Assembly: GCA_009924135.1 (NCBI GenBank)
Contig: RFSE01000052.1
Location: forward strand, 1 to 32,182
Length of the DNA: 32,182 nucleotides
Direction of reading: 5' to 3'
From: Pseudomonadota bacterium
GTDB lineage: Bacteria > Verrucomicrobiota > Verrucomicrobiia > Limisphaerales > SXTU01
Part shown: piece by piece, positions 3,191 through 28,783 of the stretch
Layout: each line of letters starts with the position of its first letter
Numbering within the stretch: position 1 is the first letter of the stretch
Notes under the pieces: model-generated
The model's database searches: none
What the model was told of the DNA's origin: nothing
The model's input: only the letters and a program-made list of their open reading frames with translations
Translations under genes and position numbers: made by a program

Positions 3191-5359
3191 GGCACCCGCG
3201 CCTGCAACGCCGCCGGACAGCTCTTGGGCGAATCCTGCACCGGCGGCGTCCTCGATGGCCTGAGCCTCACCTACGCCTACGACGGCTACCTGCGTCGCAC
3301 CAATCTGGTGACTCTCAACTCTCAACTCACCCCACTATCAACTGCGTTTTACAGTTACGATTCCGCCTCCCGCCTCGCCACCGTTTCCGACGGCACGAAC
3401 AACGCCACCTACGGATACCTTGCCAATTTGGCGCTGGTGGATTCTATTGTGTTCAAACAGAACAGCACCACCCGCATGGTCCGGACCAACCGCTACGACT
3501 ACCTCAACCGCCTGACACTGATTCAGACTCTCAATTCTCAACCTTCAACTATCAACTCCTTCACCTACGCGTACAATGATGCCAACCAAAGGATAGCCGT
3601 GACCAATGCCGACAGCAGCCGCTGGTCATGGGGCTACGACAACCTCGGCCAGGTGACGGGCGGCAAGCGGTACTGGAGCGACAACAGCGTCGTGGCCGGG
3701 CAGCAGTTCGAGTATGCGTTCGACACCATCGGTAACCGGACAACCGCTTCCTCCGGCGGGGATCAGTATGGCAGCAGCCTGCGGACGCAGACCTACGGGG
3801 CGAACACCTTGAACCAGTACACCAACCGCACCGTCCCCGCCTACCTGGAGGTGCAGGGCAGCGCCAACAGCAGCGCGACGGTGACGGTGAACAACGACAC
3901 CGTCTATCGGAAGGGTGAGTACTTCCGCAAGGAACTGTCGACTAACAACAGCAGCGCGGCCATCTGGCAGGGCATCACCAACGTGGCCGTGCTCGCCGGA
4001 GCCGGGACCAACGGTTCCGACATCGTGACGACGCAAAGCGGCAACCTGCTCGTGGCCCAAACCCCGGAGACGTTCACGTATGATGCCGACGGGAACATGA
4101 CCTCCGACGGCAAGTTCAACTACACATGGGATGCCGAGAACCGGCTGCTCGCAGCCGAAAGCCTGACGAATGCTCCCGCCGCCTCCCGCGTACGCACGGA
4201 GTGGATCTACCAGCCTGACGGCCGCTGGAGCCAACGTATCGCAGCGACATGGGACGGCAGTACCTACGCTGCGCAGTCCACCAACCGGTTTCTGTGGGAC
4301 AACAAAGTGTTGCTGGCAGTGCTGGATGGAAACGACGAAGCCACTCAAGCCTACCTGCGCGGCAGCGACCTGAGCGGCTCCATGGCCGGAGCCGGTGGCG
4401 TGGGCGGCCTGCTGGCCGTAAGCGCCCGAACCAATGGCGTCCACTTCGCTGCTTTCGACGGCAACGGCAACGTCTCCGCCCTGCTAAGCGCCAACAACTC
4501 CACGCTAACCGCGTCCTACGAATACGGCCCCTTCGGTGAGACTCTCCGCTCCACTGGTCCTGTGGCTTTGGTGAACTCAATCCGCTTCAGCACGCAATTT
4601 GCGGACGATGCCACAGGTCATTCAAAATACTTGAACAGGGATTGCTTCCCGGGCTGTGGAAGATGGTCGAGTAGAGATTCAATTGCAGAAACTGGCGGCA
4701 ATAATCTCTATCGCTTTTCTAACAATCAGCCAGTTACCAGCATCGACATCTACGGTAATTTAGTGTTTTCACTGTTCAGCAGTGCATTTGGAAATTGTGG
4801 TGGTCTATCTCAGCAATATCTGGTGAAATTGGATAATGCCCACCCGCCCGGTGGATACGTTGTCCAAAAGATAACTTTTACTTATTCAATTACAACGGCA
4901 GCAGGAATCACAAAGACTGGATCTATTACTTATTACGAATCGATACCATTTACAACATCGATATTTGCTAGTACGAGCGTCATTCCCCCTGCGGTACCGG
5001 CAGGGCCAGCAGGTTTTGACAAATGGTATTTTGATGACCACCCACTGACAAAGGGAAGCTTTACTTTGACCGGTGAAGCAAAGTTTTTTCCGCTGAACAC
5101 TGCTGGCAACACTCTTGGTGGAGTCAATCAAAATGGGCCTCTCGCACCACAGAATCCGTGGATTGCAGGAGGTACTTATGGAGATCCCAATACGGGACCC
5201 ACCGTGGGATCGGGAACATGGGCATCCTCCTCTCAGTCCCCGTCATTTTGGAATGGTCCAGCTTTGGAGAGTGCCAATCACGGTCCAGTCACCAGGAATT
5301 GGAATTGCCTTTACGGGATTCCAACTAGTCCAACACCTCAACCACCGTTCGCTCCTTAA
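3158..5359 (+). CDS. RHS/YD-repeat protein, 5'-truncated, with AT-rich variable tail
   Basis: 733 codons from the first ATG, but the first ~14 residues (MGLRRGEEERTGTR) are antisense of the MFS fragment. Recognisable RHS sequence begins at AAGQLLGES, so the gene has lost its 5' part and no natural start is visible. YD-type repeats follow (YAYNDANQR, WGYDNLGQVTGG, FTYDADGNMTSDGKFNYTWDAENRL). The RHS core runs from about residue 454 (YEYGPFGETLR) to about 530 (GRWSSRDSIAETGGNNLYRF, then DIYG). Residues ~530-733 are a variable tail, visibly AT-richer than the rest, ending in Pro-rich sequence. Intact RHS proteins are large secreted or surface shells whose tails vary and may be toxic. The tail shows no nuclease or protease motif I can name. 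Two short stretches (TLNSQLTPLST, TLNSQPSTINS) are encoded by 7-bp repeats. It may be a remnant or a recombination reservoir. Confidence 0.75.
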   Translation: MGLRRGEEERTGTRACNAAGQLLGESCTGGVLDGLSLTYAYDGYLRRTNLVTLNSQLTPLSTAFYSYDSASRLATVSDGTNNATYGYLANLALVDSIVFKQNSTTRMVRTNRYDYLNRLTLIQTLNSQPSTINSFTYAYNDANQRIAVTNADSSRWSWGYDNLGQVTGGKRYWSDNSVVAGQQFEYAFDTIGNRTTASSGGDQYGSSLRTQTYGANTLNQYTNRTVPAYLEVQGSANSSATVTVNNDTVYRKGEYFRKELSTNNSSAAIWQGITNVAVLAGAGTNGSDIVTTQSGNLLVAQTPETFTYDADGNMTSDGKFNYTWDAENRLLAAESLTNAPAASRVRTEWIYQPDGRWSQRIAATWDGSTYAAQSTNRFLWDNKVLLAVLDGNDEATQAYLRGSDLSGSMAGAGGVGGLLAVSARTNGVHFAAFDGNGNVSALLSANNSTLTASYEYGPFGETLRSTGPVALVNSIRFSTQFADDATGHSKYLNRDCFPGCGRWSSRDSIAETGGNNLYRFSNNQPVTSIDIYGNLVFSLFSSAFGNCGGLSQQYLVKLDNAHPPGGYVVQKITFTYSITTAAGITKTGSITYYESIPFTTSIFASTSVIPPAVPAGPAGFDKWYFDDHPLTKGSFTLTGEAKFFPLNTAGNTLGGVNQNGPLAPQNPWIAGGTYGDPNTGPTVGSGTWASSSQSPSFWNGPALESANHGPVTRNWNCLYGIPTSPTPQPPFAP
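3314..3343 (+). repeat. Heptamer repeat inside the RHS frame (CTCAACT type)
   Basis: Two perfect tandem copies of CTCAACT (3314-3327) are followed by a third ATCAACT at 3337, two bases out of phase. It is translated as part of the NSQLTPLST stretch. The unit resembles the array at 3531-3558. Confidence 0.6.
3531..3558 (+). repeat. Heptamer repeat inside the RHS frame (TCAACYN type)
   Basis: Four TCAA cores lie exactly 7 bp apart (3531, 3538, 3545, 3552). The unit is TCAA followed by three variable bases. The reading frame passes through it as NSQPSTINS. 28 bp is not a multiple of 3, so changes in unit number would break the frame. Confidence 0.7.
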
Positions 5360-5802: not shown

Positions 5803-5873
5803 AATTAGCCTTACACGAAGTGAACCCCGCACGCCAACCATAGCACGCGCAGCATCGGCACAAGCGGATTCAA

Positions 5874-5947
5874 GGCAAAAGTAAAAAGGTAAAAGGCAAA
5901 AGTAAACTGCCTGCGGCAAGGCAAAAGGCAAAAGTAAAAAGGCAAAA
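5874..5947 (+). repeat. Direct heptamer array (GGCAAAA / GTAAAAA)
   Basis: Five heptamers at 5874-5908 (GGCAAAA, GTAAAAA, GGTAAAA, GGCAAAA, GTAAACT) and four at 5920-5947 (GGCAAAA, GGCAAAA, GTAAAAA, GGCAAAA) are separated by 11 bp. Both blocks have the same orientation; no inverted partner was found nearby. The array lies 71 bp after the stop of the small secreted gene. Confidence 0.8.
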
Positions 5948-8256: not shown

Positions 8257-8340
8257 GGAATGCGGGGTGCGGAATGGGGTATTTGGTCAGGCGGCTGCCA
8301 TCGGCGGATTCCGCATTCCGCATTCCCCACTCCGCATTTC
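8257..8340. repeat. Inverted heptamer hairpin (GGAATGC / GCATTCC)
   Basis: The left arm has GGAATGC, GGGGTGC, GGAATGG, GGTATTT (8257-8284). The right arm has GGATTCC, GCATTCC, GCATTCC, CCACTCC, GCATTTC (8306-8340), all with exact 7-bp period. The arms are reverse complements across a ~21-bp loop. The left arm ends 1 bp before the MFS start codon; the right arm supplies the last ~12 codons of the Nudix frame. Confidence 0.85.
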
Positions 8341-8891: not shown

Positions 8892-9905
8892 ATGTCGAAG
8901 CCTGCTTTGGGACGCGGTTTGAGCGCGTTGCTGGGGGGTGGAGCAGCCGCTACGAGGCCCGCTTCCGCCCCTGCGTCCGCGCCTGCGGTTCCCGCCCCGA
9001 AACCCGCCGCGCCGGTTGTGCCCGCTGCGCCTGCTGCGGTGCCAGCGGTGGCGGTGGTTCCCTCTGCCCCCGCTTCGGTGCCGGTGCCGCCCGTGGGAGA
9101 TGTGGTGCAAAAGGTCGCGGTCACGCGGGTGCGGCCCTGTGCCTTCCAGCCCCGCAAGGATTTTGCCGAGGATGCCATTGCCGAGCTGGCCGATTCGATC
9201 AAGGTGCAGGGCATCATCTCCCCGCTCATCGTCCGGGTGCGGGGCGATGGTTTTGAACTCATCGCCGGCGAACGCCGGTGGCGGGCGGCCCAGAAGGCCG
9301 GGTTGACCGAGGTGCCGATCATCGTCCGCGAAGCCGATGACCGGGCGGTGCTGGAACTTGCGCTCATCGAGAATCTGCAGCGCGAGAACCTTAATCCGAT
9401 CGAAGAAGCCCTGGGCTACGCGCAGCTCATCGAGCAGTTCCAGCTCACGCAGGAGACCGCCGCAGTGAAAGTTGGCAAGAGCCGGACTGTGGTGGCGAAT
9501 GCGTTGCGCCTGCTCAAGCTCGCGCCGGAACTGCAAGGTTACCTGCGGCACGGCCAGCTTTCCGTCGGTCATGCGAAAGTGATCCTCGGGTTGACCGGTG
9601 CGCCCGAGCAACGGCTGGCGGCCGAACGGGTGCTCAAGGACGGCCTGAATGTCCGCCAGACGGAGGAGCTGGTTACCCGGCTCCAGCAGTCCAGCACGCA
9701 GGCCCCGACGAAGGCCGCGAGTGGCGGCAAGCCGGCTGCGCCCCGCGACGTGCATGTGGCCAGCCTCGAAAACAAGCTGCAGGAACGCTTCGGCACCAAG
9801 GTCGCGGTGCGTTACCGCAAGGGCAAGGGTGCGGTGGAAATCCGATTTTTCAATGACGACGATCTCGACCGCATTTTGCAAATTGCCGGGGTCAAAGTGG
9901 ATTGA
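8892..9905 (+). CDS. parB: ParB/Spo0J-family chromosome partitioning protein
   Basis: 337 aa. It begins with the typical SKPALGRGLSALLGG, followed by a long Ala/Pro/Val-rich linker (~residues 18-70) longer than usual. The ParB N-terminal domain follows with RKDF, the IxPLIVR segment and GERRWRAA (126-133, CTP-binding box 2). Then come the ENLQRENLNPIEEA segment, a helix-turn-helix region (ETAAVKVGKSRTVVANALRLL) and a C-terminal dimerisation part (KVAVRYRKGKGAVEIRF). It binds parS and loads SMC for chromosome segregation. No parA adjoins it in this window: the upstream neighbour is a divergent Nudix gene. Its stop codon is immediately followed by the first heptamer of the next repeat. Confidence 0.95.
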   Translation: MSKPALGRGLSALLGGGAAATRPASAPASAPAVPAPKPAAPVVPAAPAAVPAVAVVPSAPASVPVPPVGDVVQKVAVTRVRPCAFQPRKDFAEDAIAELADSIKVQGIISPLIVRVRGDGFELIAGERRWRAAQKAGLTEVPIIVREADDRAVLELALIENLQRENLNPIEEALGYAQLIEQFQLTQETAAVKVGKSRTVVANALRLLKLAPELQGYLRHGQLSVGHAKVILGLTGAPEQRLAAERVLKDGLNVRQTEELVTRLQQSSTQAPTKAASGGKPAAPRDVHVASLENKLQERFGTKVAVRYRKGKGAVEIRFFNDDDLDRILQIAGVKVD

Positions 9906-9940
9906 CGTGACACGTGACAGGTGGCAGGTGACAAGGGTTA
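9906..9940 (+). repeat. Left inverted heptamer arm (CGTGACA) after parB
   Basis: CGTGACA, CGTGACA, GGTGGCA, GGTGACA, AGGGTTA in exact 7-bp steps, beginning at the base after the parB stop codon. It is the reverse complement of the array at 10182-10216. Confidence 0.85.
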
Positions 9941-9971
9941 GTCACTGCGCCAAAGTCCAACCGAGTGCAAT

Positions 9972-10175
9972 GTGAGCATGGATGGCAAAGCAAACTTGAA
10001 CGACCGGCTTGAAGAATTTCGCGTCTATCAGGCGGCGCGGCAGTTGTTTGAACCATGTGCTCGTCTTCTGCCCGCCGAAGTCTCCGATCAACGGGTCGCC
10101 GCGCTCAACCAAATCATTGGCGGGCTGACCAAAATCATCCAAACTGGGGAACGCAAACTGTCCGCCAAACGCTGA
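9972..10175 (+). CDS. Very small helical protein within the CGTGACA cassette
   Basis: 67 codons from GTG 9972, or 65 from the ATG at 9978 (MDGKANLNDRLEEF). It is predicted mostly helical and charged (RVYQAARQLFEPCARLL, NQIIGGLTKIIQTGERK). The first helix faintly resembles the start of four-helix-bundle proteins (a short hydrophobic/aromatic helix after a charged lead), but key motifs of that family are absent, so this is weak. It sits alone between inverted heptamer arms, like the four-helix-bundle gene at 26809-27210. It could be a degenerate relative, an unrelated passenger, or a chance frame. Confidence 0.5.
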   Translation: MSMDGKANLNDRLEEFRVYQAARQLFEPCARLLPAEVSDQRVAALNQIIGGLTKIIQTGERKLSAKR

Positions 10176-10181
10176 CGAACC

Positions 10182-10216
10182 AACCCCCTGTTACCCGCCA
10201 CTTGTCACCTGTCACG
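10182..10216 (+). repeat. Right inverted heptamer arm (TGTCACG) before def
   Basis: AACCCCC, TGTTACC, CGCCACT, TGTCACC, TGTCACG in exact 7-bp steps, ending 5 bp before the def ATG. It is the mirror of the arm at 9906-9940, including the final AGGGTTA against AACCCCC. Confidence 0.85.
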
Positions 10217-10797: not shown

Positions 10798-10800
10798 GAA

Positions 10801-10895
10801 GCGGTTAGCGGTTAGCGGTTAGCGGTTAGCGGTTAGCGGTTAGCTATCCACGGCGGCTTTCAGCTGATGGCTAAATGCTAAAGGCTAATCGCTAC
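10801..10895. repeat. Inverted heptamer hairpin (GCGGTTA x6 / NNGCTAA x4)
   Basis: Six perfect copies of GCGGTTA (10801-10842), a 25-bp loop, then TGGCTAA, ATGCTAA, AGGCTAA, TCGCTAC (10868-10895). In phase TTAGCGG, the left arm pairs with the right. The hairpin fills the gap between the def stop (10797) and the heme-protein stop (10896), so it is also placed where a bidirectional terminator could be, but no T-run follows. Confidence 0.9.
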
Positions 10896-24075: not shown

Positions 24076-24110
24076 AATCAGTGGTTAGGAGTCAGTGTTC
24101 AATAATCAAT
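24076..24110 (+). repeat. Single-arm degenerate heptamer array (ANTCANT)
   Basis: AATCAGT, GGTTAGG, AGTCAGT, GTTCAAT, AATCAAT in 7-bp steps, between the sucD start and the end of the ParE-like toxin; the last unit overlaps the toxin stop codon. No clear inverted partner; a weak AGTCAGT match lies at 24646. The period is less clean than in the other arrays. Confidence 0.5.
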
Positions 24111-24414
24111 CGGTAAGCAAATCGTCGAGCGTCGGGTTGTCGCGTGCGCCGTGTCGGTCATGGGAGATTTCCACGATCCGTTCGTCATGCCGCACGCGAT
24201 AGAAAATTTTGTAGTTTCGGTGCGGAAGCACGCGTTGGGGCAGTTCGGGATCGTAAACCCGGCCGATTTCCGGATGGGTTTTCAGCACCTGGGTGCGCAG
24301 AAGCAATCCTTCTCCAAGTCGCCGTGCGGCGGACGGATTCCGGCGGCGCAGGTAACGGTCAATTCTTTCCAAATCGCACACGGCAGGTTCGGTCCAGATC
24401 AGTTCGTATTTCAG
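24106..24414 (-). CDS. RelE/ParE-type toxin (first module)
   Basis: 102 aa if translation starts at CTG 24414, which overlaps the antitoxin stop as CTGA; this gives LKYELIWTEPAVCDLERI, the expected family N-terminus. The first GTG (24381) would drop that conserved strand. Helices ERIDRYLRRRNPSAARRL and the strand pair RVLPHRNYKIFYRVRHDERIVEI with a final HDRHGARD match the RelE/ParE fold. ParE members poison gyrase, RelE members cut mRNA on the ribosome; the sequence does not decide between them. It forms a pair with the upstream 65-aa gene and lies between sucC and sucD. Confidence 0.85.
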   Translation of the reverse strand: MKYELIWTEPAVCDLERIDRYLRRRNPSAARRLGEGLLLRTQVLKTHPEIGRVYDPELPQRVLPHRNYKIFYRVRHDERIVEISHDRHGARDNPTLDDLLTD

Positions 24415-24608
24415 CTTTGCTGCCAGGAACGGAAGCGGCGGACGACTTCATCGTGCGGGACGACTTTGCCCTGAGCGGCGGCGGCGTCAGATTCCCGCAA
24501 GGCCGCAAGGATGTCCACCCGCTCACGTACCTGGCGGGCCGACGCCTTGTTTGGCATCCGGCTGATGGCCAGCAACGCCTCTTCTTTGAATGAAAGTGTC
24601 GCGTTCAT
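24411..24608 (-). CDS. Antitoxin of the first RelE/ParE module
   Basis: 65 aa, starting at ATG 24608. The C-terminal half (AAAQGKVVPHDEVVRRFRSW) is the pattern seen in partners of RelE-type toxins: a Gly then a short segment before a basic Arg/Trp-containing tail. The N-terminal half (FKEEALLAISRMPNKASARQVRERVDIL) is helical and could hold DNA-binding or dimerisation. It is too short for certain family placement. Stop and toxin start overlap by 4 bp (CTGA), so the two are translationally coupled. Confidence 0.75.
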   Translation of the reverse strand: MNATLSFKEEALLAISRMPNKASARQVRERVDILAALRESDAAAAQGKVVPHDEVVRRFRSWQQS

Positions 24609-24647
24609 GCGGGGAGTGTAAATGGCGTTGGTGGATTCGGAAAGCAG

Positions 24648-25022
24648 TCAGTGGTGCGCGCCTTTGCGCTTGTGAATGCAGAGTGTGTTGCCGTCGGGAT
24701 CGAAAACCATCGCCATGTGGCAGACGGGCGTGGGGAAGGGTTCCATGCGGAACTTCGCGTTCGCCTCCTTCAACGTGGCGATGGCGGCGTCGAAGTCTTC
24801 GACTTCCAGTGCGACCGTGCAGCCATCCGGGCTGGGCTGCCAACCGGGCGCGGAGCCGAGGGACAGCGCGTAGGGACCGAATTCGTATTCTACCCAGTTG
24901 CCGGCCGGGGTATCGGTCACGGTCGTGGGCTTGAGGCCGAGTACGCCTTCGTAAAACGCCCGCGCCCGCGCCATGTCTGTGACGGCGTAGCAGGCGAAGG
25001 CGATTTCAGTGACTTTGATCAC
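24648..25022 (-). CDS. VOC-family (glyoxalase-like) protein
   Basis: 124 aa from a GTG at 25022 that overlaps the toxin stop as GTGA. It has the vicinal-oxygen-chelate fold: beta-alpha-beta-beta-beta modules with FACYAVTDMARARAFYEGVLGL at the start and VFDPDGNTLCIHKRK at the end. Fold members bind metal and act on small molecules or sequester drugs. The coupling to a toxin-antitoxin pair suggests it travelled with it, or that it was the first cargo there. Substrate unknown. Confidence 0.85.
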   Translation of the reverse strand: MIKVTEIAFACYAVTDMARARAFYEGVLGLKPTTVTDTPAGNWVEYEFGPYALSLGSAPGWQPSPDGCTVALEVEDFDAAIATLKEANAKFRMEPFPTPVCHMAMVFDPDGNTLCIHKRKGAHH

Positions 25023-25318
25023 GTTGTTTTTCCCTTCTGACGCTCAATTAAGCGCTGCGGGTCGCGCTTGGCGTGGTAAATGGCGAGCACGGAAATCAAA
25101 TCGTCCCTCCAAATGAAGTAGATGGCGTTAGGGAAGCGCGCGAGCCGAGCCTTCCGAACCTCCCCGTGCACCGCCGGGTAACGGCCCGGGGTGCGCTGGA
25201 TGACGCCAAGCACAGACTCCACGGCAGCGATAAATTCGCCACTGAGTCCGCGTCTTTGTTCTTCATACCAGTTGTGAGCATCGGCTGTTTCGGTCTTTGC
25301 GACCGTCTTGATTATCAA
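25019..25318 (-). CDS. RelE/ParE-type toxin (second module)
   Basis: 99 aa from a TTG at 25318 that overlaps the antitoxin stop as TTGA; starting here gives LIIKTVAKTETADAHNWYEE, the normal N-terminus, while an upstream ATG at 25366 would run 52 bp into the antitoxin. The family features are clear: WYEEQRRGLSGEFIAAVE in the helix, then RFPNAIYFIWRDDLISVLAIYHAKRDP, close to the ParE group that gives gyrase poisoning or the RelE group. Its stop overlaps the VOC start (GTGA), giving a three-gene coupled set. Confidence 0.9.
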   Translation of the reverse strand: MIIKTVAKTETADAHNWYEEQRRGLSGEFIAAVESVLGVIQRTPGRYPAVHGEVRKARLARFPNAIYFIWRDDLISVLAIYHAKRDPQRLIERQKGKTT

Positions 25319-25551
25319 CTCTCGGCTCGTCTCTGCCTGAGGATTTCCCGTTTGGCTTCCGCCCACGAAACGCCTTCGCGTGGATTCCGCTCGAACTCAG
25401 CGACGCGCTGGTTGAGTTCGGTTTTCTGGGCGTCCGAGAGCGACCAGTCCTTGTCACTCGCTCCGATGTCATCCCATAGGTCTTCGACCAGTTGGATGCG
25501 CTCCGGCAGGCTCAGGCCGGCGGTTTCTTTACGGATTTCGAGCGTTGTCAT
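25315..25551 (-). CDS. Addiction-module antitoxin component (second module)
   Basis: 78 aa. It matches the TIGR02574-type addiction module component pattern: GLSLPERIQLVEDLWDDI, then LSDAQKTELNQRVAEFERNP, REGVSWAEAKREI. It neutralises the adjacent RelE/ParE toxin. The ATG at 25551 lies 12 bp after the sucC stop, so the module probably uses the sucC transcript as well as any promoter of its own. Confidence 0.93.
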   Translation of the reverse strand: MTTLEIRKETAGLSLPERIQLVEDLWDDIGASDKDWSLSDAQKTELNQRVAEFERNPREGVSWAEAKREILRQRRAES

Positions 25552-25563
25552 GACCGCAAGGTA

Positions 25564-26769
25564 TCACTGGGCCACCGTCTTGACCACCTTCTGCGCCGCA
25601 TCCGCCATCGAGTCACCGCTGATGATGGTAAGCCCGGATTCCGCCAGCGTCTTCTTGCCGGCGGCGACGTTGTTGCCTTCGAGGCGGACTACGAGCGGGA
25701 GCGTCAGGCCGGTTTCCTTCACCGCCGCGACGATGCCGGTGGCGATGACGTTGCAGTCCATGATGCCGCCGAAGATGTTCACGAAGATCGCCTTCACCGC
25801 CGGATCGCTGAGGATGATTTTGAAGGCGGCCGTGACCTGGTCCTTGCTCGCCCCGCCGCCCACATCGAGGAAGTTCGCCGGGCTGGCGCCGTAGTGCTGG
25901 ATGATGTCCATCGTGGCCATCGCGAGGCCGGCACCGTTGACGAGGCACGCGATCGAGCCGTCCAGCTTGATGTAATTCAGGTTGAACTTGCTCGCTTCGA
26001 TCTCCAACGGGGATTCCTCGGCGAGGTCGCGCATGGCCTGGATGTCCTTGTGCCGGTAAAGCGCGTTGTCATCGAGGCTGACCTTGGCGTCCACGGCCAC
26101 GAGCTGGTCCTTGCCATCGGCACCTTCGACGATGCAGAGCGGGTTGATCTCCAGCATCGCGGCGTCGGCCTCCCACCAGGTCTTGTAAACGCCCGCGAGC
26201 AGCTTGCCGCACTGGTTGGCGAGGTCGCCCTTGAGCCCGAGCGCGGCGGCGACTTTGCGGCCCTGCCACGGCTGGAATCCCAAGGCGGGGTCAACCTGCT
26301 CCTTCACGATTTTCTCGGGCGACTTCTCGGCGACTTCTTCGATGTCCACGCCGCCTTCGGTGCTGGCCATGATGAGCGGACGGCTCGTGGCGCGGTCCAG
26401 CAACACGGCGAGGTAGAGTTCCTTCTTGATGTTTGGCGCCCCGGCGACGAGCAGGGTGCTGACGAGGCGTCCATCCGGACCGGTCTGCTTGGTGACCAGC
26501 ACGTTGCCAAGCATGGCGGTGGCCAGGTCCTTCGCCTCGGCGGCGGTCTTGCACAGTTTCACCCCGCCCTTGAAGCCGCTCTTGAAGGTGCCCTTGCCCC
26601 GGCCGCCGGCGTGAATCTGCGACTTCACCACGAGCATTTTGTGCCCGGCGGCGACGAGTTTTTCAGCGGCGGCAAACGCCTCGTCCGGCGTCTTGCACAC
26701 CTCGCCATCAGGAACGGCGACGCCATATTGTTTCAGGAGCTGCTTGCCTTGGTATTCGTGAATATTCAT
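25564..26769 (-). CDS. sucC: Succinyl-CoA synthetase beta subunit
   Basis: 401 aa. The ATP-grasp domain ([40 protein letters not shown]) and the CoA-ligase domain with [18 protein letters not shown] and [12 protein letters not shown] are both complete. With sucD it forms the TCA-cycle enzyme of succinyl-CoA. Length is normal (~390-400). Its ATG lies 7 bp from the left heptamer arm of the four-helix-bundle cassette, which therefore separates it from gltA. Confidence 0.97.
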
Positions 26770-26775
26770 CGGAAA

Positions 26776-26810
26776 GTTTCGGGTTGGGAGTTTGGAGTAT
26801 CGGGTTGATT
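26776..26810 (-). repeat. Left inverted heptamer arm (GTTTGGG type) before sucC
   Basis: GTTTCGG, GTTGGGA, GTTTGGA, GTATCGG, GTTGATT in exact 7-bp steps on the + strand. The last unit overlaps the four-helix gene's stop codon (26809-26811). The reverse complement matches 27224-27258. Confidence 0.85.
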
Positions 26811-27210
26811 AAGTCGTTCGGTTTTGGAACTTTTGACCGCGAATTTCGGTGGTTTGGAGATACTTCATGAATGCGCCGATTTTGCGGGCGACGGCGGCGG
26901 CTTGATCGTGGAGGCGCTGAAATTCAGATTGGGCCAGATAGGCTGCATCGACCGCAGTGTAGAGATGGTCCTGAACTTCGCCACAGGAACCTTTCGAGGT
27001 GCTCAGAAACTGGACGAATTCGCGGTTGCCACCGCGTTCGAAGCTTTCCGCGATGTTAGCCGTAATCGAAATGGCGGCGCGACGGATTTGGTCCCGCAAC
27101 GGGTAATCCTTCGCGAAATCACCTTGCTTCGTTACTGCGTAAACGGCGCGTTTCAAATCCCGCCCCATTTGCCAGGCTTCAATGTCCTCAAATCGCGTGA
27201 TGGTGCCCAT
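26809..27210 (-). CDS. Four-helix bundle protein (S23/IVP-like)
   Basis: 133 aa from the ATG at 27210 (MGTITRFEDIEAWQ), a characteristic start of the family; the longer reading to 27522 would run into gltA and is rejected. The family's helices are visible: FEDIEAWQMGRDLKRAVYAV, RDQIRRAAISITANIAESFE (the RAA-S-I-N-I-AE signature) and NREFVQFLSTSKGSCGEVQ. Known relatives sit in 23S rRNA intervening sequences and as accessory proteins of diversity-generating retroelements; they bind nucleic acid. Here the gene lies precisely between inverted heptamer arrays within a gltA-sucC operon, so it behaves like a cargo of a small mobile unit. No reverse transcriptase is nearby. Confidence 0.93.
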   Translation of the reverse strand: MGTITRFEDIEAWQMGRDLKRAVYAVTKQGDFAKDYPLRDQIRRAAISITANIAESFERGGNREFVQFLSTSKGSCGEVQDHLYTAVDAAYLAQSEFQRLHDQAAAVARKIGAFMKYLQTTEIRGQKFQNRTT

Positions 27211-27223
27211 TTGGTGCGAGGTC

Positions 27224-27258
27224 GGAGAACCCAAAACTCCAAACCCCAAACGCGAAAC
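27224..27258 (-). repeat. Right inverted heptamer arm (GTTTGGG type) after gltA
   Basis: On the minus strand: GTTTCGC, GTTTGGG, GTTTGGA, GTTTTGG, GTTCTCC in exact 7-bp steps. It begins 2 bp from the gltA stop codon and is the mirror of 26776-26810. Confidence 0.85.
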
Positions 27259-27260
27259 AA

Positions 27261-28394
27261 TTATCTCTGTTCGATCGGCACAACCTTCAGCCCCACCGGG
27301 CCGGTGTACTGCGACTGCGGGCGGATGAGCCGGTTGTCGGCGAGCTGTTCCAGCACGTGCGCCGTCCAGCCGCTGGTGCGGGAGATGGCGAAGATGGGGG
27401 TGAAGAGGTCGGTCGGGATGCCGAGGGAGTAATAGACCGTGGCGCTGTAGAAATCCACGTTGGCGTGGAGGTTCTTCTTCGTGAGCATCAACTCGGCGAT
27501 GCGCTCGGACATCTGGATCCACTTGGGTTCGCCCAACTGGCTGCTGAGGATCTGCGCCATGCGCTTGAGGTGCGGGGCGCGGGGATCGAGCACTTTGTAA
27601 ACCCGGTGGCCGATGCCCATGATCTTCTTTTTCTGGGCGAGCGCGTCGGCGACCCAGCCGTCCACGTTCTCTAGGGAACCGATTTCATGGAGCATCTTGA
27701 TGACGCCCTCGTTCGCCCCGCCGTGCAGCGGGCCCTTGAGGGTGCCGATGGCCGTGGTGATGGCCGAATACATGTCCGACAGCGTGGCGATGGTCACGCG
27801 GGCGCTGAAGGTCGAGGCGTTCATTCCGTGGTCCGCGTGGAGCACGTAGCAGATGTCCATCGTGGCTTCCATGTCCTTGGTGGGCAGGGTGCCATTGATC
27901 ATCCAGAGGAAGTTGGCGGCCTCGCCGAGGTTATGATCCGGGGCGATGAGCGGCAGACCCTGCCGGTAGCGGTGGAAGTAGGCCGTCACGACCGGCACCT
28001 GCGAGATTAGCCGGAGCGCCTTGCGCCGTTGCGCGTGCTGCGAATCATCTTCGCTGGTGGTGTCGAAGCAGCCCAGCGCGGACACCGCCGTGCGGAGCGC
28101 GTTCATCGGCGGCGTGTCCTTGGGCAGCGTGCAGATGATGTCGATCACGCCCTGCGGGATGTCGCGGAACTGCGCCAGCGTGGCCTTTAACTCCGCCAGC
28201 TCCTTCGCATTGGGCAGGTGGTTGTGGTGCAACAGGTGGACAACTTCCTCGTACGTGACCTTGCCGGCCAGTTCGTTGATGTCGTAGCCGCAGTAAATCA
28301 ACTGTCCGATGTCGCCTTTGACATCACTCAAACGCGTCTGCGCGGCGACGACGCCTTCGAGGCCTTTGCTGGGTGATGCGGTGGGAGTGCTCAT
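27261..28394 (-). CDS. gltA: Citrate synthase
   Basis: 377 aa from the ATG at 28394 (MSTPTASPSKGLEG); a longer reading to 28466 adds an unconserved extension. The catalytic residues are visible: H224 (LHGGANEG), H263 (GIGHRVYK) and D314 (NVDFYSATVY). It has the short form typical of type I citrate and 2-methylcitrate synthases. It condenses oxaloacetate and acetyl-CoA at the entry to the TCA cycle. Placement next to sucC and sucD on one strand makes a TCA operon, interrupted by accessory cassettes. The alternative methylcitrate synthase function cannot be excluded from sequence. Confidence 0.95.
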   Translation of the reverse strand: MSTPTASPSKGLEGVVAAQTRLSDVKGDIGQLIYCGYDINELAGKVTYEEVVHLLHHNHLPNAKELAELKATLAQFRDIPQGVIDIICTLPKDTPPMNALRTAVSALGCFDTTSEDDSQHAQRRKALRLISQVPVVTAYFHRYRQGLPLIAPDHNLGEAANFLWMINGTLPTKDMEATMDICYVLHADHGMNASTFSARVTIATLSDMYSAITTAIGTLKGPLHGGANEGVIKMLHEIGSLENVDGWVADALAQKKKIMGIGHRVYKVLDPRAPHLKRMAQILSSQLGEPKWIQMSERIAELMLTKKNLHANVDFYSATVYYSLGIPTDLFTPIFAISRTSGWTAHVLEQLADNRLIRPQSQYTGPVGLKVVPIEQR

Positions 28395-28783
28395 GCTTCT
28401 GGGTTTCGGATGGTGTCGTTTAAAAAATCGTCCGGCGAATCTAAGTACCGGCCAAACTTGGGTCAACGGATTTCAACCTGCCGTCGGAATGAATCCGTTG
28501 AATGCGCCCCATGAGCCCGCCGCCTTGAAGCGCGGACGCCCACGTCCGCAGCCTGCCGTTCGCGTGCGAACGGGTTTGCTGCCTTGGTCCCGTGCCTCCA
28601 AATTTTACGTCCGAAATCACCGCCCTACGTGGGCCCAGGCTCACCTCCGCTTAGTTGCTGCCATGCGTCCGCCCCAGACCCCAGACGCCAGACCCCAGAC
28701 CCTTTCGTTCCCCGCTTCGCTGCTGGCTTGCTTCCGCCCCTTGAGACCGTAACCATCTGCCCATCACATACATCTACCGCCCC
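28395..28783. other. Intergenic region with hairpins and a heptamer array
   Basis: 389 bp between divergent gltA and sulfatase. It contains two clean hairpins: GCGGACG/CGTCCGC (28532-28549, 4-base loop) and CCGTTCGC/GCGAACGG (28556-28573, 2-base loop). It also has the heptamer array at 28673. No gene is supported. Promoters for both sides must lie here; none is clear by eye. Confidence 0.6.
28673..28700 (+). repeat. Heptamer array (CCCAGAC x4)
   Basis: CCCAGAC, CCCAGAC, GCCAGAC, CCCAGAC in exact 7-bp steps. No inverted partner is seen. It lies 84 bp before the sulfatase start. Confidence 0.8.

Follow-up and report, generated by a model that had tools for sequence, protein, structure and literature searches.

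In REP/RAYT systems, the gene of a Y1 transposase lies between inverted repeats, and gene-less copies of these repeats are found in the genome. S23/IVP proteins have been described in another setting, the intervening sequences (IVSs) in the 23S rRNA of Leptospira and Coxiella, in which an S23p ORF is bordered by complementary sequences and whose distribution is patchy (PMC4990558). According to the same paper, proteins of this family have solved structures and no known function. Heptameric repeats have been described in Xanthomonas and Nostoc (Rehm et al. 2015, PMC4692102). They are intergenic and tend to have about four units; convergent pairs number 70 and 75 in Xanthomonas, with positions mostly kept between two species. 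Among the simple repeats of many bacterial genomes, heptamers are reported to be over-represented. The repeats are discussed there as G-quadruplexes, and the word S23 is absent from the main text. The TAACTGA repeats of Beggiatoaceae (MacGregor 2015, PMC4679880) are also abundant intergenic heptamers, but they are direct repeats of one unit, and the available sections of that paper mention neither "S23" nor "four helix". No paper linking the S23/IVP family with heptamer arrays was found in the open-access literature, a scope which makes this absence weak.

Here we analyzed a gene of this family in a stretch of 32,182 nucleotides from a genome of the Verrucomicrobiota (the window, i.e., the whole stretch of DNA that was analyzed). 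The gene lies between two host genes which we take to be gltA and sucC, names recognized from the sequence and also given by the initial annotation. The features of the element and its surroundings are as follows:

27261..28394, minus strand: upstream host gene, presumably citrate synthase gltA (name by recognition, without family search)
27259..27260: 2-bp gap from the gltA stop codon (27261-27263) to the 5' arm
27228..27258, minus strand: 5' arm, upstream of the four-helix gene, GTTTCGC GTTTGGG GTTTGGA GTTTTGG GTT (minus-strand reading, 27258 down to 27228)
26809..27210, minus strand: S23/IVP-type four-helix-bundle gene, 133 aa, ATG start, TAA stop, with PF05635 and TIGR02436 profile matches
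26776..26806, plus strand: 3' arm, GTTTCGG GTTGGGA GTTTGGA GTATCGG GTT (plus-strand reading), inverted relative to the 5' arm
26770..26775: 6-bp gap from the 3' arm to the sucC start codon (26767-26769)
25564..26769, minus strand: downstream host gene, presumably succinyl-CoA ligase beta sucC (name by recognition, without family search)

The initial annotation had placed an S23/IVP-type gene between inverted GTTTGGG-type heptamer arms at these positions, and the sequence, the profile scores and TRF, which detects the 5' arm at 27228-27258, bear this out. It had counted five heptamers per arm; each arm is 31 nt long, that is, four heptamers plus three bases, and a fifth, partial unit of the 3' arm extends into the stop codon of the four-helix gene. 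The distance of 2 bp from the gltA stop to the right arm stands, and the gap before sucC is 6 bp rather than the 7 bp proposed. GTTTGGG describes the arms of the window element but is no family signature, since units vary between elements.

Like the 23S rRNA IVS, the window element has an S23/IVP ORF in an insert bordered by complementary sequences and a patchy distribution, but it lies between two protein genes, outside 23S/16S rRNA, and elements of this kind are found at stop-start junctions of protein operons. They further differ from the IVS in that the arms are made of short tandem units varying by element, that gene-less relatives exist, and that selection for pairing in sense RNA finds no support. 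With REP/RAYT, the elements share a dedicated gene between inverted repeats and, elsewhere in the genome, inverted copies of these repeat families that lack the gene; however, they have no Y1 transposase, their repeat sequence varies within one genome, and their ends are tandem arrays. Presence or absence at orthologous sites resembles that of insertion sequences and MITEs. The four-helix-bundle fold is common to Avd of diversity-generating retroelements (DGRs), but no reverse transcriptase was matched in the window genome.

Profile searches assigned the window protein to PF05635 (107.6 bits, cut-off 33.8), the sole Pfam family matched at E 0.001, and to TIGR02436 (105.1 bits, cut-off 24). Its AlphaFold2 monomer model (mean pLDDT 87.6) has 2gsc and 2rld as top Foldseek matches (best E 1.2e-5; TM 0.79 for the query and 0.90 for the target), followed by Avd (4dwl) and a DGR complex (8ub7) with TM about 0.7 but E of only 0.07-0.2. 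The 2gsc protein, from Xanthomonas, is described as a toroidal homopentamer in PMC4990558. The four-helix gene is the only cargo of the element, which encodes no enzyme. No match was obtained in Rfam up to E 1 for positions 26500-27500, nor in a phage collection by tblastn at 1e-3.

Period-7 segments with a score of at least 12 number 37 in 432 kb of the window genome and 0 in second-order Markov shuffles, and of the periods from 4 to 15, 7 and its double 14 (25 segments) alone exceed the background. As such arrays occur genome-wide, one array beside one gene means little, and it is the matched pair flanking the gene that has to be tested.

PF05635 genes are present in 10 of 11 genomes of the genus, and 100 of 145 genomes of a phylum sample have a match. 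We examined 127 such genes: genus loci (those listed by the search and, in 20 additional stretches, 21 of another 27 match rows, the six left out being partial or weak), 30 phylum loci (the best match of each of 30 genomes, which leans to strong family members), the loci returned from six named genomes, and 15 loci from 21 plasmid records. With a shared period of 6 to 9 required in both arms, matched inverted short-unit arms were called at 113 of the 127 genes (48/57 and 65/70 in two batches), the period being 7 in 86, 8 in 22, 6 in four and 9 in one. The same call was positive in 19 of 885 control ORFs (5/305, 9/305 and 5/275 in the separate sets), all at 6 or 9, which codon periodicity would give. 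Mispaired flanks were called armed in 54 of 500 cases, a rate attributable to the recurrence of repeat families. Within a distant subfamily, arms were called in one of four genes.

The question raised with the initial annotation, whether four-helix genes are flanked by inverted period-7 arrays more than by chance, is answered by unit 7 at 86/127 genes versus 0/885 control ORFs. The possibility that most such genes of the phylum have no flanking heptamers was considered there as well, and the opposite was found: most of those examined have arms. An earlier score, a Smith-Waterman alignment of one 200-bp flank to the reverse complement of the other, reaches 21 for the window gene. At a threshold of at least 16, it was positive at 54/64 genus and first named loci, versus 26/400 mispaired flanks and 12/298 control ORFs of the window genome, which include the window gene itself and an ORF overlapping another four-helix gene. 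Later loci gave 60/74 with duplicates, or 55/68 with most duplicates removed, versus 31/400 mispaired flanks and 23/287 control ORFs from ten other genomes.

The window genome (G000) has 16 PF05635 matches, 14 of them above the cut-off; the two weak ones resemble the distant subfamily. By eye, inverted short-unit arrays flank 13 of these 14 genes, with L007 doubtful, and the automatic call gave 12, missing L007 and L008. Their units vary by element (GTCCAAA, GTGAAAA, GATTGCC, GATTTAC and others). Misses of the call are partly methodological, as L037 and L040 each have two arms identical by eye with mixed 7- and 8-nt steps. The same layout, with its own repeat each time, at most examined genes of the family in several bacterial phyla points to a widespread, little-noticed genetic element. 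Armed four-helix genes were also seen inside CRISPR operons of cyanobacterial plasmids, between cas10 and the gene for Cmr3 in Picosynechococcus (L222) and between cas6 and cas4 in Anabaena sp. 90 (L218).

Comparison of gene junctions revealed that the element is present or absent as a unit. gltA was matched in nine of the ten other genus genomes (91-97% identity). In six, a spacer of about 75 bp containing a small hairpin separates it from sucC, with no gene between, and in three a longer, different sequence follows it. The same element, arms included, lies at gltA-sucC in two genomes outside the genus sample, with the same arm type and proteins 78-80% identical. The empty gltA-sucC junctions that the initial annotation had suggested looking for exist in six of the ten other genus genomes, and the two further carriers of the gene at this place have arms.

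The description of the locus as a tidy inserted cassette is supported by these comparisons, and other elements have cleaner empty sites. At gltA-sucC, however, as also between two genes which we recognized as presumably urtA and urtB, the element takes the place of the usual spacer instead of splitting it. The urtA-urtB element occurs in five genomes, where the urtB frame has CTG in place of the ATG found in five empty genomes; the eleventh (G007) has GTG with other sequence in front. Behind these elements (L139-L142, L144), the start of urtB may lie elsewhere or be CTG.

Cleaner comparisons come from L051 (against genome G003), L072 and L014 (both against G010), where an empty stop-start junction of 1-9 bp corresponds to a whole element in the other genome. 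TGA flanks L014 on both sides (compared with the empty L272), which may be a target-site duplication; none is evident at L072 or L051. One junction has a full element in G007, a gene-less hairpin of the same family in G000 and a hairpin of another family in G003; at another, common neighbors surround elements of unit 6 (L074) and unit 8 (L068). Among the elements fetched, no near-identical copies lie at two sites of one genome, the closest within-genome pairs having 36-78% protein identity when an assembly duplicate (L209 of L203) is excluded. No recent movement is thus seen, and movement, if any, would be old or slow.

The two arms of an element change jointly. When each flank was searched for arrays separately, both-sided arrays were found in 42 of 52 elements at 20 shared sites, which gave 30 same-site pairs. 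The 5' arrays differ in 13 of these pairs (5 sites), and in 13/13 the similarity within elements exceeds that across elements. The 3' arrays differ too in 10 of these 13 pairs, versus 5 of the 17 in which the 5' arrays agree. This independent-flank test supersedes an earlier version which defined arms by mutual match and thereby favored its result (16/19 diverged pairs; by site, six of eight positive, one of them near zero, and two negative). Among pairs with differing arms (L006, L045, L052, L069, L071), units turn over at one site and the proteins are 70-76% identical.

Both arms of an element have one common unit, and heptamer arms contain a median of 4.4 units, 89 of 162 having 4 to <5. 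A separate unit call on 131 elements gave 7 in 81, 8 in 20, 9 in one and 6 in one, with seven ambiguous and 21 below score; three of the ambiguous elements (L010, L074, L189) were assigned unit 6 by hand. On a protein tree made by a quick method from few columns, with many open forks, six unit labels ("none" and "ambiguous" included) require 31 changes versus 47 when shuffled, a value as low in 0/200 shuffles, and near-copies contribute to this clustering. The corresponding values for single labels are 25 versus 40 (unit 7), 12 versus 18.9 (unit 8) and 2 versus 4 (unit 6). Since unit length clusters on the protein tree, these elements offer a case of unit-length control.

The sequence of the unit behaves otherwise, being conserved only among close relatives: mean similarity is 0.73 at protein identity of at least 70% and 0.44-0.48 below 50%. 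That the protein clade dictates unit sequence was rejected, the correlation among 40 representatives (Mantel rho 0.105, p 0.07) not being significant beyond close relatives, and this weak correlation does not favor a sequence-specific reading. In the 5' arm, G exceeds C in 98 of 110 elements. Elements with six-nt units (L010, L074, L206) form a group on the protein tree that spans genomes, and their 5' arms are rich in C, unlike those of most other elements. G-quadruplex formation as the cause of unit number was rejected for most arms: a G4-capable arm is present in 16/110 elements, and the unit number is about the same in arms without G4 capability. The G4 pattern (four G-tracts) is absent from both arms of the window element (L005).

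In about 1.6 Mb from four genus genomes, we found 42 gene-less hairpins. When matched genus-wide rather than element by element, 12 of these reach a similarity of 0.8 or above to an arm of some four-helix element of the genus, versus 2/210 unit-permuted hairpins and 2/42 against arms from outside the genus; 14 of the 42 fall below 0.6 similarity to genus arms. One hairpin of G003 matches the window element at 0.75. The hairpins lean to G over C as the 5' arms do (33/42, with 8 opposite). Loci L021, L024, L025, L029 and L030 belong to an 8-mer CAGGAAGG hairpin family in G000, which none of the arms of genus four-helix elements matches closely. The four genus samples contain six inverted pairs whose loop measures 370-440 nt, and each of the six encloses a four-helix gene; eight other inverted pairs (loops of 155-928 nt) contain no called four-helix gene, one of them being a decayed copy.

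The single genus genome without a PF05635 match (G010, 82% complete) has 8 period-7 segments in 400 kb, versus 37 (432 kb), 36 and 31 in three others, with some arrays and hairpins still present. Phylum-wide, the link between gene and arrays is weak: 9 segments in genomes with the gene versus 1 in those without (400 kb each; 3/10 versus 1/10 genomes), 6 of the 9 coming from one genome.

The best explanation, to which we give a probability of roughly 0.55, is that the element is a self-contained, transposase-less cassette whose ends are inverted short-unit arrays and whose sole cargo is the four-helix gene, with the arms matched at the DNA level and bound by the protein. It builds on the observed architecture, its generality among the loci examined, presence and absence, joint arm change and shared repeat families; from these, we infer arm binding, movement and a DNA-level route. 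Such a cassette would be gained or lost as a unit at stop-start junctions of operons. Template switching between the arms of a hairpin or cruciform is a known host process, and arm matching might most simply be maintained by such switching at the replication fork together with slippage on the tandem units. The four-helix protein may be the cassette's own nucleic-acid-binding factor which binds the arms, perhaps with about one subunit per unit. Bound protein could hold the arms together as a hairpin, thereby stabilizing them and helping their spread, and the gene-less hairpins of the same repeat families would be non-autonomous copies spread with its help.

As routes through RNA, reverse transcription and a Y1 transposase in trans were tested and disfavored, the DNA route is the best of what remains. 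A Y1_Tnp helper in trans is not required as far as seen, with no match in the four-helix carriers G004 and G009 (92% and 80% complete). At 13 of 16 Y1_Tnp places tested in the genus, most loci have strong inverted flanks, and 4 were called periodic.

The route through RNA would make the element an mRNA version of the 23S rRNA IVS: pairing of the arms in the transcript of the operon would form a stem that RNase III cleaves, which would excise the four-helix gene or set it apart, and selection for RNA pairing would keep the arms matched. The protein family and the layout, an ORF bordered by complementary sequences, are those of the 23S IVS (PMC4990558). The window arms pair around the gene in both the predicted minimum-energy and centroid RNA folds, with an arm-arm duplex of -38.7 kcal/mol, and own-arm duplexes have a median of -37.5 kcal/mol versus -11.8 for mispaired arms. 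A crude count also has the longest open frames on both sides sharing the strand of the gene in 51 of 104 elements. However, selection on a sense-RNA stem is rejected by the asymmetry of wobble pairs, which goes in the opposite direction: arm differences in 110 elements keep G.U in sense RNA in 168 cases and leave A.C in 220 (p 0.0095), or 30 versus 50 by element. The whole-element RNA fold is not unusual either (z -1.23), and the gene-less hairpins have no ORF to release. We consider this explanation unlikely.

Heptamer hairpins might instead be passive host repeats, arising from replication slippage and quasi-palindrome correction, where the four-helix gene tends to land. Although arrays are common in the window genome, most of them without a gene, and heptamers are reported to be widespread in bacteria with no link to a protein (PMC4692102), such passivity is quite improbable given the specificity for one gene family (unit 7 or 8 at 108/127 genes versus 0/885 control ORFs), the six 370-440 nt loops of the four genus samples, all of which hold a four-helix gene, and the clustering of unit-length labels on the protein tree.

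Similar to iterons, the arms could also be operator arrays through which the four-helix protein represses its own operon, with no mobility involved. Tandem units of rather constant number adjoin the gene start, and the fold family is one of oligomers. An operator, however, would require no inverted copy matching it behind the gene, and no hairpins that lack the gene elsewhere. Units also turn over at one site although the proteins there remain 70-76% identical, which speaks against autoregulation as well, and we regard it as very improbable.

A retroelement accessory role, in which an Avd-like protein works with a reverse transcriptase copying the arms, is hardly tenable despite the place of Avd and the DGR complex in the fold list, as RVT_1 (PF00078) was matched in only 1/11 genus genomes and not in the window genome (90% complete), which largely refutes such a partner unless a divergent reverse transcriptase or an assembly gap reopens the case. 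Thus, of the "nucleic-acid role in making or moving the arms" proposed by the initial annotation, the role itself remains what we infer, and its link to retroelements is weakened.

If the cassette explanation is extended, the S23/IVP family, so far classed as rRNA intervening-sequence proteins or as unknown, might tentatively be viewed as the dedicated protein of phylum-spanning, transposase-less elements with matched arrays whose unit length leans by clade (6, 7, 8, perhaps 9 nt). Together with the gene-less hairpins, such elements could then be the source of the heptameric repeats that many bacterial genomes (Xanthomonas, Nostoc, Verrucomicrobiota) have in excess, and rRNA IVSs would be a special case landed in rRNA. 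No agent had been found for heptameric repeats and no function for S23/IVP proteins, and tying the two together makes both testable: the reading names a protein to purify and the DNA to test it on, with unit-permuted arms as a clear control.

Several other features were observed in the window. In the spacer before def (9905-10215; gene names by recognition), heptamer arms surround an apparently decayed four-helix-bundle gene, at the same place as L082 in another genus genome. A gene-less hairpin at 10800-10894 has six perfect AGCGGTT units in one arm, facing a degenerate partner in inverted orientation. Other heptamer arrays lie at 3311-3558, 5872-5947, 8305-8338 and 28672-28702, with the families ACTCTCA, AAGGCAA, ATTCCGC and CCCCAGA. 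Between sucC and an apparent sucD (24106-25366) lie three genes: one for a ParE-type toxin (PF05016), one recognized as glyoxalase-like and a small one without Pfam match; the operon is thus interrupted more than once.
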